A DNA stretch of 22,962 nucleotides from a virus. Below, piece after piece: positions 16,758 to 20,302 of the stretch. The stretch is from positions 1 to 22,962 of IMG/VR virus record IMGVR_UViG_3300043436_001716; one strand, 5' to 3'. The stretch's first letter is position 1. Every line of letters begins with the position of its first letter. Position numbers and translations under genes: made by a program. The notes below the pieces were generated by a model. That model was not told the DNA's origin and searched no databases. It was given only the letters and a program-made list of their open reading frames with translations.

Positions 16758-17039
16758 ATTATTGATGTAATCAATGAACCTATTTACCTCTTCCTCCTCC
16801 ATGTCAAAGATTTGCCACACAAGATCAATAATAGAACTGTTGATTGTATCCTCTGCCTCTGCCATGTCTTTGCCTAATTGCTGGTGCAGGAACTTCTCAA
16901 ACTCAACAGAGTGATGGAGTAGCCTATTGAAGTGCAGCTTCACATCATGCCTAAGAGCCTTGTCTGAATGCTTGATGACAAAGCCTGTCTCTATTATGCC
17001 CCGAACAAAGCAGGTAAACTTGCTAAAGTCGTTTTTCAT
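16728..17039 (-). CDS. Hypothetical helical protein (103 aa)
   Basis: A 103-aa soluble protein, MKNDFSKFTCFVRG at the start, mostly helical by composition, with basic and His-rich middle (KALRHDVKLHFNRLLHHSVEFEKF) and an acidic C-terminal half (DMEEEEVNRFIDYINNFDDHLKKEA). No membrane segment or catalytic motif. ATG 17039 overlaps the upstream stop as ATGA, so it is coupled to the 85-aa membrane-anchored protein, which suggests the two work together. Function unknown. Confidence 0.78.
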   Translation of the reverse strand: MKNDFSKFTCFVRGIIETGFVIKHSDKALRHDVKLHFNRLLHHSVEFEKFLHQQLGKDMAEAEDTINSSIIDLVWQIFDMEEEEVNRFIDYINNFDDHLKKEA

Positions 17040-17293
17040 TTCCTCATGCAGTGAAAGAATAAAACAGTCATGGCTAAGGCAAACACAGTGATGGCAAAGG
17101 TCACAGACCGCCAGTAATAAAACTCCTTCTGAAGCTTTATGTAGTCATTGTTTGCATTGTTTAGCTTATGCAGATTATCCTGGTTCAACTGCTTTACTTT
17201 GGCAGTCTGCTCCTTGTGATAATCCCTTGCCCTCCGGTGATTGTCGGCAATGCGCTTGCACTCAGCAAGCTTGTCTAATAGCTCTTGGCTCAT
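17036..17293 (-). CDS. Coiled-coil protein with C-terminal membrane anchor (85 aa)
   Basis: An 85-aa protein. Residues 1-~58 are a charged coiled coil (MSQELLDKLAECKRIADNHRRA and following KVKQLNQDNLHKLNNANND). Residues ~63-81 are a hydrophobic segment (SVTFAITVFALAMTVLFF) before a short basic end (HCMRK), which predicts a tail-anchored protein with the coil in the cytoplasm. It overlaps the following 103-aa gene as ATGA. A 65-nt AT-rich gap lies upstream with a near-match to the -7 element (TTTATTTGCA). The small size and anchor recall spanin- or Rz-like lysis accessories, but there is no endolysin nearby, so this stays open. Confidence 0.75.
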   Translation of the reverse strand: MSQELLDKLAECKRIADNHRRARDYHKEQTAKVKQLNQDNLHKLNNANNDYIKLQKEFYYWRSVTFAITVFALAMTVLFFHCMRK

Positions 17294-17358
17294 TTGCTTT
17301 ATTGGTTAGATTATTTTTTTGCAAATAAAAAACCAATTTAGGCAACAATCAAAATAAA

Positions 17359-17910
17359 TTATTTGAAAACCATAATGGTATTCTTGAACCACCACAAACT
17401 GGATGCATTACGGAGTGCCTTAGTAGCTACTTCATCAAGTGTGTAGGCTCTCAGATGCATTTGGTCAATGATGTATTCATTTGTTTGGCAATTGACATGC
17501 CCATCACCATTCTGCCCAGGCACTGCCCATGATAAGATGATCATGCTCTTTGCATGCTTGGCAATGTTGTCTAAGTAGATGCTTTCAAATTCTGCCGGGA
17601 TATGCTCCCCAACTTCTAAAGACAAGACGCAATCAAACTTCTCATTAAGGTCAAACTCAACAGATAGGTCTTGAGTTCTGCCTGTGCCTAATGTGAGTGC
17701 ATAGGTATTAGGATTGCCATCATAAGCTTGGCAATAGATTCCAGCAAGCCTGAACTGCTCAGGATAGTAACCCATGCCACAGCCAAAGTCTACAAGTGTC
17801 TTGCACTCATCCTTCTTGAGCATGGCAAGGATAGCTGTTGCAAGCCTCTTATCATGGTGATGGCCTTCAGCAGTCTTATTCTCCCAAAAGCCTTTCTGAT
17901 TTATCTTCAT
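17359..17910 (-). CDS. Class I SAM-dependent methyltransferase
   Basis: A 183-aa enzyme with a complete Rossmann-type methyltransferase core: motif I LVDFGCGMGYYPEQF (residues 39-53), an acidic residue ending strand 2 (AYDGNP, Asp 64), motif IV region FDCVLSLEVGEHIP (92-105), and a later ILSWAVPGQNGDGHVN segment. The N-terminus GFWENKTAEGHHHDKRLA is a recurrent phage arrangement. The substrate cannot be read from sequence: there is no DPPY motif, so it is not an N4/N6 DNA methylase. A nucleotide, cap-like or small-molecule target is possible. It overlaps the VRR-NUC gene by 35 nt; the start is kept because the N-terminal motif looks conserved. Confidence 0.87.
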   Translation of the reverse strand: MKINQKGFWENKTAEGHHHDKRLATAILAMLKKDECKTLVDFGCGMGYYPEQFRLAGIYCQAYDGNPNTYALTLGTGRTQDLSVEFDLNEKFDCVLSLEVGEHIPAEFESIYLDNIAKHAKSMIILSWAVPGQNGDGHVNCQTNEYIIDQMHLRAYTLDEVATKALRNASSLWWFKNTIMVFK

Positions 17911-18325
17911 TTTTCTGATTTATGTTGTAATACCAATCAAGGACAGTAATAACCTCATCAAGTGACCATGAGACAATCACAAGCCAATTCTGAGCCACTA
18001 ATTTATCCAAGAAAGCTAATTGTTGCTCTGATGGTTTATTATATCCTACTTTTAATTCTATGGCTAATCCTGAGAAGCCTTTTAATTGATCAAGGATTAA
18101 GCAGTCCGGCACTCCTGGCTTAGTTCCCATTGCTTTCAACTTGCTTGCTTCTATAGCATTCCTGCTGCCTCCATTTGGGCAGTGAAACCAAGTGGCCTGA
18201 ATGTTGTCAAGATATTTGGCAACAGACTTTTGAAACTCATCCTCTTTGCCTACATACTTTTTGAATGGGCCGGATAGGTCAATGAGTGGTTTATTAACTA
18301 AATATTCAAAATAGAAGCCTGCCAT
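17876..18325 (-). CDS. VRR-NUC domain nuclease
   Basis: A 149-aa PD-(D/E)xK nuclease. After a short N-terminal extension the VRR-NUC core starts at KEDEFQKSVAKYL (27-39), continues with FHCPNGGSRN (47-56) and MGTKPGVPDCLIL (66-78, Asp 74), then AIELKVG (88-94, Glu 90 and Lys 92) and KPSEQQLAFLDKL (97-109). These are the full catalytic set. Stand-alone phage VRR-NUC proteins are thought to act as structure-specific endonucleases or Holliday junction resolvases, here probably on replication or recombination intermediates before packaging. It is the first gene of the leftward operon, starting 24 nt downstream of the TAGGTTTG box. Confidence 0.92.
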   Translation of the reverse strand: MAGFYFEYLVNKPLIDLSGPFKKYVGKEDEFQKSVAKYLDNIQATWFHCPNGGSRNAIEASKLKAMGTKPGVPDCLILDQLKGFSGLAIELKVGYNKPSEQQLAFLDKLVAQNWLVIVSWSLDEVITVLDWYYNINQKNEDKSERLLGE

Positions 18326-18340
18326 AAATTTCTTGCAATT

Positions 18341-18348
18341 ACATTTGC
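18341..18348 (+). promoter_or_regulatory. Plus-strand -7 element TACATTTG of the divergent promoter
   Basis: TACATTTGCA matches TAnnTTTG and ends 25 nt before ATG 18374. No TTG occurs 17-23 nt upstream. It abuts the minus-strand element so that TACATTTGCAAACCTA serves both directions. Confidence 0.45.
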
Positions 18349-18356
18349 AAACCTAA
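18349..18356 (-). promoter_or_regulatory. Minus-strand -7 element TAGGTTTG of the divergent promoter
   Basis: TAGGTTTGCA on the minus strand, 23 nt before ATG 18325, would start the long leftward operon. It is directly back to back with the plus-strand element; transcription in one direction should hinder the other. No clear -33 box. Confidence 0.45.
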
Positions 18357-18373
18357 GCCAATTAGAATTAAGT

Positions 18374-18736
18374 ATGAATTTTTTAAAAATGAGTGACTTC
18401 TGCCGGAAGTTCAACATCCCTCAGCATCGATTCAGTAGATACAAGGATTGCTTTGCCATGATTCCTATGGAAGGATATAGCAAGCCTTGGGTGCTTGTGA
18501 ATGAATATAACCAGGCAATGGTTAAGGAGATTCTGAGCATCAAAGGCACAAGGCCAAAGAAGGAGAGATTGACTTATGAGGCTTACAAGCAGAAGTACAA
18601 TCTGAGTGTTGATCACTTTCAAAAGGTGTGGCACAGGCTACACTTAGAGGAGCAGGATGGCAAAATGATGATAGTGGACAGCAAGCAAAATCATGTGCTT
18701 CTGAAGCATGGGAGGCTATACAGAAAAAAATCTTAA
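18374..18736 (+). CDS. Putative DNA-binding regulator with duplicated helix-turn-helix-like unit (120 aa)
   Basis: A 120-aa, very basic protein. Two halves align with each other: KFNIPQHRFSRYKDC (residues ~12-26) and KYNLSVDHFQKVWHR (~74-88). Each is followed by about 20 residues and a strand (PWVLVNEYNQ and KMMIVDSKQN) and then a helix with KE/KH. The pattern, an initiating helix, a turn at Asn-Ile/Leu and a second helix with exposed basic residues, looks like a helix-turn-helix, but I cannot assign a named family. An internal start at Met 6 is possible. It is the first plus-strand gene, lying between the divergent promoter and the promoter at 18754-18784, both of which carry paired TTGCA sites. 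A transcription regulator is the best guess. Confidence 0.72.
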   Translation: MNFLKMSDFCRKFNIPQHRFSRYKDCFAMIPMEGYSKPWVLVNEYNQAMVKEILSIKGTRPKKERLTYEAYKQKYNLSVDHFQKVWHRLHLEEQDGKMMIVDSKQNHVLLKHGRLYRKKS

Positions 18737-18739
18737 TTA

Positions 18740-18763
18740 TTTTTGCAGATATATTTGCAGATA
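18740..18763 (+). repeat. Two direct 12-bp repeats TTTTTGCAGATA / TATTTGCAGATA
   Basis: Adjacent copies at 18740-18751 and 18752-18763 differ at one base. Each contains TTTGCAGATA, and each is also the end of a TAnnTTTG match (18738-18745 and 18750-18757). The second copy overlaps the -33 box of the next promoter, so it is either an operator or a tandem promoter cluster. Confidence 0.65.
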
Positions 18764-18784
18764 AAAAAACAAGTATTACATTTG
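18754..18784 (+). promoter_or_regulatory. Strong Bacteroidota-type promoter TTTG-N19-TACATTTG
   Basis: TTTG at 18754-18757 and TACATTTG at 18777-18784, exactly 19 nt apart, match the primary sigma factor pattern of Bacteroidota fully. This is the best promoter in the window. Transcription should start near 18791 and read the 49-aa gene, and the SSB and Gp157 genes if the hairpin at 18991 is passed. Confidence 0.7.
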
Positions 18785-18833: not shown

Positions 18834-18983
18834 ATGACAACAGAACAAGAAAAAGAGCTTCAGGAAATTTTAAACAGTGAAGCATTCAATCAAATTTTTG
18901 ATATTGAATCAGAACAAAAAGAAATTGAAACATCTGGATGGACATATTCAATGATTCAGAATTTTGCAAACAGCATTAAATAA
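18834..18983 (+). CDS. Small acidic protein behind the strongest promoter (49 aa)
   Basis: ATG 18834-18836 to TAA 18981-18983, 49 codons. The sequence MTTEQEKELQEILNSEAF and following text is rich in Glu and Gln and would form an amphipathic helix, with a short aromatic end (GWTYSMIQNFANSIK). There is no Cys or membrane segment. It starts about 43 nt after the predicted transcription start and is followed directly by a small terminator hairpin, so it may be a self-contained, highly expressed early gene. Small acidic early phage proteins often bind and inhibit host proteins; here that is only a possibility. Confidence 0.68.
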   Translation: MTTEQEKELQEILNSEAFNQIFDIESEQKEIETSGWTYSMIQNFANSIK

Positions 18984-19138: not shown

Positions 19139-19795
19139 ATGGCAATTATCGCAAAATCATCCGGAGAGACTACTCAGAGAGAGTTAATCCCAGCAGGCAC
19201 TTACTTAGCAAGGTGCTATTCAATGGTTCACCTTGGCACTGTTAAGCAGTCCTACTTAGGTGAAGAGAAGTGGACAAATCTTGTCCGCATAACTTGGGAA
19301 CTTCCCACAGAACTTAGATGCTTCAATGCAGACAAAGGTGAGCAGCCTTGTGTCATCAGCAAGGAAGTTACACTAAGCATGAATGAGAAAAGCACTCTCA
19401 GAGCATTGCTCACAGGTTGGAGAGGCAAGGCATTCACAGAAGATGAAGCAAAGGAGTTTGATGTGGCTAAGCTGCTTACAAAGCCTTGCATGATTAGCAT
19501 ATTCCATCAGGCTTCTAAGAGCAATCCTGAGAAGGTTTATGAAAGGATTGCAAGCATTAGTCCTGTGATGAAAGGCATGGAATGCCCTGCCCAAATCAAT
19601 CCTACTTTTGAGTTTTCAGTCCTTGACTATAACCAGGCTAAGTTTGACACCATGCCTGAGTTCATGAAGGAGATGGTAAGAGGCTCTAAGGAGTTTCAGC
19701 AACTTCTTCAGCCTAAGCCTGTGGCACAACCGACACAAGTGGCACAAGCAGCACCAGTGAGCATTCATGATTCATTTGATGATTTGCCTTTTTAA
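19139..19795 (+). CDS. Single-stranded DNA-binding-like replication protein
   Basis: A 218-aa protein. The core (residues ~15-150) begins IPAGTYLARCYSMVHLGTV and contains RITWELP, then a helical part (KSTLRALLTGWRGKAFTEDEAK), a recurrent phage arrangement annotated as ssDNA-binding or replication protein. The C-terminal ~40 residues are a Gln/Pro/Ala-rich linker ending in SFDDLPF. An acidic tip finishing in Pro-Phe is the hallmark by which SSB proteins recruit replication partners. It probably coats single-stranded DNA during phage replication. It is followed 3 nt later by the Gp157-like gene, as one operon. No Shine-Dalgarno, only an AT-rich leader. Assignment rests on the C-terminal tip and context. 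Confidence 0.78.
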   Translation: MAIIAKSSGETTQRELIPAGTYLARCYSMVHLGTVKQSYLGEEKWTNLVRITWELPTELRCFNADKGEQPCVISKEVTLSMNEKSTLRALLTGWRGKAFTEDEAKEFDVAKLLTKPCMISIFHQASKSNPEKVYERIASISPVMKGMECPAQINPTFEFSVLDYNQAKFDTMPEFMKEMVRGSKEFQQLLQPKPVAQPTQVAQAAPVSIHDSFDDLPF

Positions 19796-19798
19796 GTC

Positions 19799-20302
19799 AT
19801 GGCATCACTTTGGCAATTGACTCAAGAAGAACTCTCCTTCATCAGCTTGATGGAGGAGAACGGTGGTGAGGTCACCGATGAATTAATGGAGGACTTGGCT
19901 ATCCGTAGAGAGAACTTTAGCCACAAGGCTGAGGCTTATGCTAAGTTCATCCTTAAGCTTGAATCTGAATCAGATCAGGCAGCTGCTGAACTCAAGAGAA
20001 TTCAGGCAATCAAAAAGGCAAAGGATAAGACAGTTGAAAAACTCAGAGAGAACCTGCTTGCTGCTCTGATGTTATTTGGGCAGGAGGATAGCAAAGGAGT
20101 CAAGAGGTTTGAGACTACCTTAGCCAAGCTATCAACTCGCAAAAGTGTTTCAGTTGAGATACTTGATGAAGATTCAATCCCTCCGGCTTTTTGGCTCATT
20201 AAGAAAGAGCCTTGGAAGGCTGAGATAGGCAAGGCTATTAAAGATGGTGAGCATGTACCTGGTGCGCAAATGCGTGAGAACATAGGTTTAAGCATTAGGT
20301 AA
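19799..20302 (+). CDS. Gp157-like siphovirus protein
   Basis: A 167-aa protein matching the Siphovirus Gp157 pattern: MASLWQLTQEELSFISLMEENGGEVTD-type start (here to residue ~27), a long charged helical middle (KAEAYAKFILKLESESDQAAAELKRI), a KKAKDKTVEKLRENLLAAL segment, and a C-terminal beta part with STRKSVSVEI and IPPAFWLIKKEPWKAEIGKAIKDG. In streptococcal phages Gp157 has been linked to phage resistance; in most phages it lies next to SSB or recombination genes, as here. It may assist recombination or replication. It ends 38 nt before the bidirectional terminator. Confidence 0.93.
   Translation: MASLWQLTQEELSFISLMEENGGEVTDELMEDLAIRRENFSHKAEAYAKFILKLESESDQAAAELKRIQAIKKAKDKTVEKLRENLLAALMLFGQEDSKGVKRFETTLAKLSTRKSVSVEILDEDSIPPAFWLIKKEPWKAEIGKAIKDGEHVPGAQMRENIGLSIR

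Follow-up and report, generated by a model that had tools for sequence, protein, structure and literature searches.

A 120-aa protein built from two similar halves lies between two pairs of direct TTGCA repeats, each pair set on a promoter, and we lean towards the view that it is an autoregulated two-headed regulator that recognizes TTTGCA half-sites and represses both the divergent promoter on its left and a rightward promoter, PR, on its right. The gene and its paired sites probably form a genetic switch that regulates itself, of a kind already familiar. In the window, the 22,962-nt stretch of viral DNA analysed here, the 120-aa ORF sits between the left and right pairs, and the features concerned are as follows.

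17316–17327, minus strand: S3, a third invariant element, TTTTTGCAAATA (TATTTGCAAAAA on the leftward strand), upstream of ORF 17036–17293 (leftward)
17876–18325, minus strand: VRR-NUC-like gene, the first in the leftward direction (weak Pfam match, E 0.0072, under the cut-off)
18333–18337, plus strand: L1, the left pair's upstream half-site TTGCA, outside any promoter box
18340–18347, plus strand: −7 box TACATTTG of the putative regulator's own promoter (TAnnTTTG consensus; predicted start about 18352)
18345–18349, plus strand: L2, the left pair's second TTGCA, where two inverted −7 boxes abut
18348–18355, minus strand: −7 box TAGGTTTG of the leftward operon promoter, present in 46 of 46 loci (predicted start about 18343)
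18356–18361: AGCCAA (consensus AACCAA), past the leftward −7 box, where it mirrors the position of L1 relative to the leftward promoter
18374–18736, plus strand: putative regulator, 120 aa, with two similar winged-helix-like halves (about residues 1–58 and 62–112)
18740–18751, plus strand: R1, upstream half-site TTTTTGCAGATA of the right pair
18752–18763, plus strand: R2, second half-site TATTTGCAGATA of the right pair, containing the −33 box
18754–18757, plus strand: −33 box TTTG of PR (TTTG-N19-TAnnTTTG in 43 of 44 loci)
18777–18784, plus strand: −7 box TACATTTG of PR (predicted start about 18789)
18834–18983, plus strand: 49-aa ORF, the first gene after PR, read from the sequence
19139–19795, plus strand: SSB-like gene (tblastn to the 'putative ssDNA binding protein' of phage RIO-1, E 2e-9)
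19799–20302, plus strand: Sipho_Gp157 family gene (PF05565, E 2.1e-26)

The right pair starts at 18743 and 18755 on the plus strand, exactly where the first-pass annotation had placed it, and has the same 12-bp period as the left pair. It forms part of a longer repeat, TTTGCAGATA, which runs from 18742 to 18751 and again from 18754 to 18763. The left pair, which had been put at 18334 and 18346, stands as a pair with its coordinates shifted by one base: the left copies are TTGCAA palindromes, the earlier positions are minus-strand reads, and the plus-strand starts are 18333 and 18345. Single TTGCA words show no enrichment in the window, at 106 observed and 131 expected. Spaced pairs are modestly enriched, with three strand-matches against 0.39 expected, a number reached in 2 of 100 shuffles.

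We judge the pairs to be real because the comparison across relatives is decisive. Relatives were gathered by scanning viral contigs with the 120-aa protein, its SSB-like neighbour and a protein alignment, and fell into three groups by regulator identity: clade A (80–100%), clade B (51–56%) and clade C (about 35%). Site counts refer to 46 non-redundant clade A and B loci that carry a homologue (about 50–100% identical). The search for TTGCA pairs beside homologues, which the first-pass annotation had proposed as a check, recovered the left pair in all 46 loci (41 at 12 bp and 5 at 11 bp, a count that takes in L077, whose site is upstream of a second ATG) and the right pair in 38 of the 45 loci that cover it (20 at 12 bp and 18 at 11 bp). 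As periods of both 11 and 12 bp occur, the geometry is not rigid. Across 16 whole records, the pair is almost confined to the two places flanking the regulator, and a reversed control pattern did not occur once. No pair lies near the SSB gene in 16 of the 17 SSB-bearing relatives that lack the regulator. Clade C differs from clades A and B in both respects: its operator pairs are absent and its protein has diverged too. The likely recognition helices, HRF[ST]RYK and HF.KV.HR, are common to the two clades that share the operators.

The outcome that had been named in advance as speaking against paired operators, relatives that keep the promoter box and lose the second TTGCA, never occurs on the left and is confined to a minority of loci on the right. 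There, R1 is lost in L008, L020, L022, L067 and L076 with the gene retained, and the upstream right copy is therefore dispensable in some lineages. Two individual loci depart from the general pattern in other ways. The right site of L068 (3368–3403) holds three tandem TTGCA copies on a 12-bp period instead of two, and L043 (2571–2797), the exception among the 17 relatives above, has a TTGCA pair, 11 bp apart, near its SSB gene, at a −33 box and beside a small ORF that gave no match to the regulator by tblastn.

Part of the similarity between the sites does come from promoter sequence, and more of it than was at first supposed, as both pairs have a promoter element for their second TTGCA. Bacteroidota primary-sigma promoters consist of a −33 TTTG and a −7 TAnnTTTG (PMC7366714, PMC9723704). 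The −7 motif is found at 18340, at 18348–18355 on the minus strand and at 18777, and is kept in relatives; the −33 TTTG is found for PR only, and no consensus −33 at suitable spacing is present for either left promoter. The attribution of the right-hand second TTGCA to a −7 box was ruled out, as it is the −33 of TTTG-N19-TACATTTG. PR is the sole instance of TTTG-N18–20-TAnnTTTG in the window, as it is in most records of clades A and B; a few of these records have one or two further promoters at spacer 18–20.

On the left, the abutting inverted −7 boxes at 18340–18355 read TACATTTG followed directly by CAAACCTA, and L2 is their junction, so no regulator is needed to explain L2. The resulting palindrome, TAnnTTTGCAAAnnTA, is exact in 41 of the 46 loci and 1 nt shorter in the other five, which read TACTTTGC and fit TAnnTTGY, a Flavobacterium promoter motif (PMC9723704). 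All 65 matches in 605 kb of loci come with the leftward box TAGGTTTG, and TTTGCAAACCTAA at L2 is invariant across 44 loci. A leftward promoter was initially thought absent, until the scan of relatives revealed TAGGTTTG on the minus strand. By its boxes, the left site is a symmetric divergent promoter, conserved group-wide and missed by the first-pass annotation, with starts predicted on the assumption that the boxes lie at −12 to −5, as in PMC9723704. Beyond the leftward box, the CCAA columns of the element at 18356–18361 show 1, 0, 0 and 0 changes. Besides this AGCCAA/AACCAA region, CTAACCAA is found again in the leader below S3.

These boxes make promoter elements alone the strongest rival to the repressor reading, one that we consider unlikely. 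It holds that TTTGCA is simply the look of −7 and −33 boxes in these phages and that the neighbouring protein has another role: L2, R2 and possibly R1 (TATTTTTGCA) would be boxes, and L1 and the mirrored CCAA would be extended −7 elements replacing the missing −33. Boxes alone do explain both L2, as two abutting −7 boxes, and R2, as a −33. Moreover, the distance from L1 to the TA of the −7 box is fixed while its distance to L2 varies, TTGG lies at a comparable distance from the leftward −7 box, and TTTGCAAA is found in S3 too at a promoter-like position. The loss of R1 from several lineages that keep the gene also speaks against the repressor reading.

The distribution of changes in the alignment argues that the boxes are not the whole account. 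Changes per column were counted on the tree of the regulator gene, in which third codon positions average 7.8. The TTTG of R2 shows zero changes and is followed by CA in 41 of 43 loci, whereas CA follows the TTTG of the PR −7 box in just 4 of 43; TTTGCA therefore exceeds what the promoter needs. R1 lies one turn upstream of R2, at about −49 to −38 of PR and outside any PR box, yet is conserved: its T run and most of its ATA are kept, and its G and C columns change 4 and 3 times, set beside PR spacer columns past the repeat that mostly change 6–12 times. L1 keeps TTGCA without TAnn and shows zero changes over five columns in 44 loci, with neighbouring columns changing up to 13 times. The same TTGCAnnTA, in addition, is common to L1, R1 and R2. 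As far as sequence can tell, L1 and R1 are unexplained by boxes.

The repressor reading also draws on the protein itself, for which the earlier description of two similar helix-turn-helix-like halves was borne out. Profile comparison of the N- and C-terminal halves with hhalign gave a probability of 85 and an E-value of 6e-6; pairwise alignment of the halves is not significant for the window's own protein (p 0.29) and is significant for that of L021. On this profile evidence, the 120-aa protein is a tandem duplication. A single-half homologue exists in L023 (3646–3867), at the same place between VRR-NUC-like and SSB-like genes, and the region upstream of it holds four TTGCA within about 35 bp. 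Each half is modelled as a small winged helix: the AF2 model has a pLDDT of 88.8 for the whole protein and 92.1 for the N-half alone, and the order of DSSP elements fits helix–helix–strand(s)–helix. The pTM is 0.49, so the relative placing of the two domains is not predicted confidently. Fold matches are weak, with all PDB E-values 0.3 or more (best 0.3 for the whole protein and 0.7 for a half-domain) and E 0.2 or more in a viral library. Searches of Pfam, NCBIfam and PHROGs returned weak unrelated matches only, with no sequence match to BldC, MerR-like or excisionase family models and none to the CII family or a CII PDB chain, and no relatives were found among named phages and prokaryote genomes. 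The regulator family is undescribed and unannotated.

The analysis establishes the repeats, the promoter boxes, their conservation and the duplicated domain; binding of the 120-aa protein at these sites, its stoichiometry, repression over activation and its timing are inferred. Each winged-helix-like domain would read one TTTGCA-centred half-site, and the covalently joined domains would bind head-to-tail on direct repeats spaced by 11–12 bp, about one helical turn. At the left site, the protein would sit over the abutting TACATTTG and CAAACCTA, blocking the leftward operon as well as its own gene. On the right, its position would be about −47 to −30, across the −33 box of PR, and the block would turn off the early rightward genes (the 49-aa ORF and the SSB-like and Gp157-like genes). 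In a virulent phage, the proposed repressor would most likely serve to shut off early transcription at a set time or to control its dosage.

The same geometry could also serve activation, in the style of lambda CII, with RNA polymerase recruited by protein bound to the TTGC direct repeats of PR and of the left promoters. The PR repeats lie at about −47 and −35, and cII direct repeats straddle −35, as cited in PMC3335776, which also names winged-helix proteins on direct repeats near −35 that can activate, PhoP among them; the left promoters, for their part, have no −33. We regard activation as improbable because PR already has every consensus element (−33, spacer and −7) and its −33 lies within R2. 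The left pair, in addition, overlaps the −7 boxes and a predicted start, a position typical of a repressor. Least probable is that the sites are bound by another protein, a host factor or another phage protein, and lie near the gene since both promoters are there: the L043 pair does occur at a −33 box without the regulator gene, but across clades A and B the pairs go with the gene, most relatives that lack it have none, and none occur in clade C, whose protein has diverged.

S3 was found with a half-site matrix trained on the right pair. It has 0 mismatches in all 44 loci that cover it, with twelve zero-change columns, and a second TTGCA stands 11 bp upstream of it in 10 of the 44, all of them in clade B; this second copy is absent in the window. 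S3 may be another target of the regulator or only another promoter. Neither L1 nor L2 ranks among the nine best hits of the same matrix in the window (for L013, L075 and L053, L1 does appear in the list), so by itself the matrix is no proof of a shared motif.

Close relatives (for example, L009, L010 and L011) carry extra sequence between the SSB-like and Gp157-like genes, which lie next to each other in the window; this marks a variable insertion spot. Pfam models for tyrosine integrases and serine recombinases (resolvases), and above-cut-off HTH_3 matches, were absent from 16 records, some of them fragments. These are therefore probably virulent phages, and a lysis/lysogeny switch was judged unlikely. 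The host is probably a member of the Bacteroidota, an assignment that follows from promoter type only.

If the repressor reading is right, it describes a compact control circuit in uncultured phages, a widespread group, probably of Bacteroidota, whose gene control is little known, and an unannotated protein family gains a name and predicted target sites. The fuller proposal is put forward tentatively: a single-chain head-to-tail dimer of a duplicated winged helix would bind 11–12-bp direct repeats, closing a symmetric divergent promoter at one site and the main full-consensus promoter at another, so that one small protein of a previously undescribed phage regulator family would govern both transcription arms.

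In the phi29 p4 and lambda Cro circuits, too, a small early protein controls divergent and early promoters; their operators are inverted repeats, and the proteins are unrelated to the 120-aa regulator. The direct repeats of lambda CII are spaced as TTGC-N6-TTGC, with a period of 10 bp, whereas here they are TTGC-N7 or N8-TTGC with a period of 11–12 bp, one repeat is the −33 box itself, and a two-domain chain takes the place of the CII tetramer. The likeness is that both place direct TTGC repeats in the −35 region of phage promoters, as cited for CII in PMC3335776. The cluster A mycobacteriophage immunity repressor of TipsytheTRex also carries two DNA-binding domains in one polypeptide, and an early-promoter block has been proposed for it (PMC9283540). 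Its domains are unlike (an HTH and a stoperator domain) and its asymmetric site occurs at many places, whereas the halves here are copies of each other, the sites number two or three, and nothing points to lysogeny; the domain pairing, the many dispersed sites and the temperate habit of cluster A repressors are thus not seen here.

Bidirectional, or pseudo-symmetrical, bacterial promoters have overlapping inverted core boxes and divergent starts, with spacings of 10, 18 and 23 bp common in E. coli (PMC12825309). The abutting inverted core boxes of TAnnTTTGCAAAnnTA place the left site among them as a conserved example built from TAnnTTTG boxes; the predicted spacing is about 9 bp, and Bacteroidota −7 boxes (TAnnTTTG abutting CAAAnnTA) lie under a proposed operator. 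BldC (MerR-like, Streptomyces; PMC5859096), lambda Xis and RdfS (PMC11963761) use small winged-helix domains to bind direct repeats in DNA head-to-tail; on the smeA–sffA promoter, one turn of DNA separates the BldC molecules (PMC11963761). BldC structures 6ama and 6amk rank among the better hits to the half-domain by TM (0.53–0.55 to the target), but their E-values are above 1 and the likeness is therefore a resemblance only. The half-site here is TTTGCA, as opposed to the AATTnnnn(C) of the BldC/Xis/RdfS type, and two domains with no significant sequence or fold match are fused in one chain; if the repressor reading holds, this would be a natural single-chain version of BldC/Xis head-to-tail binding to direct repeats.
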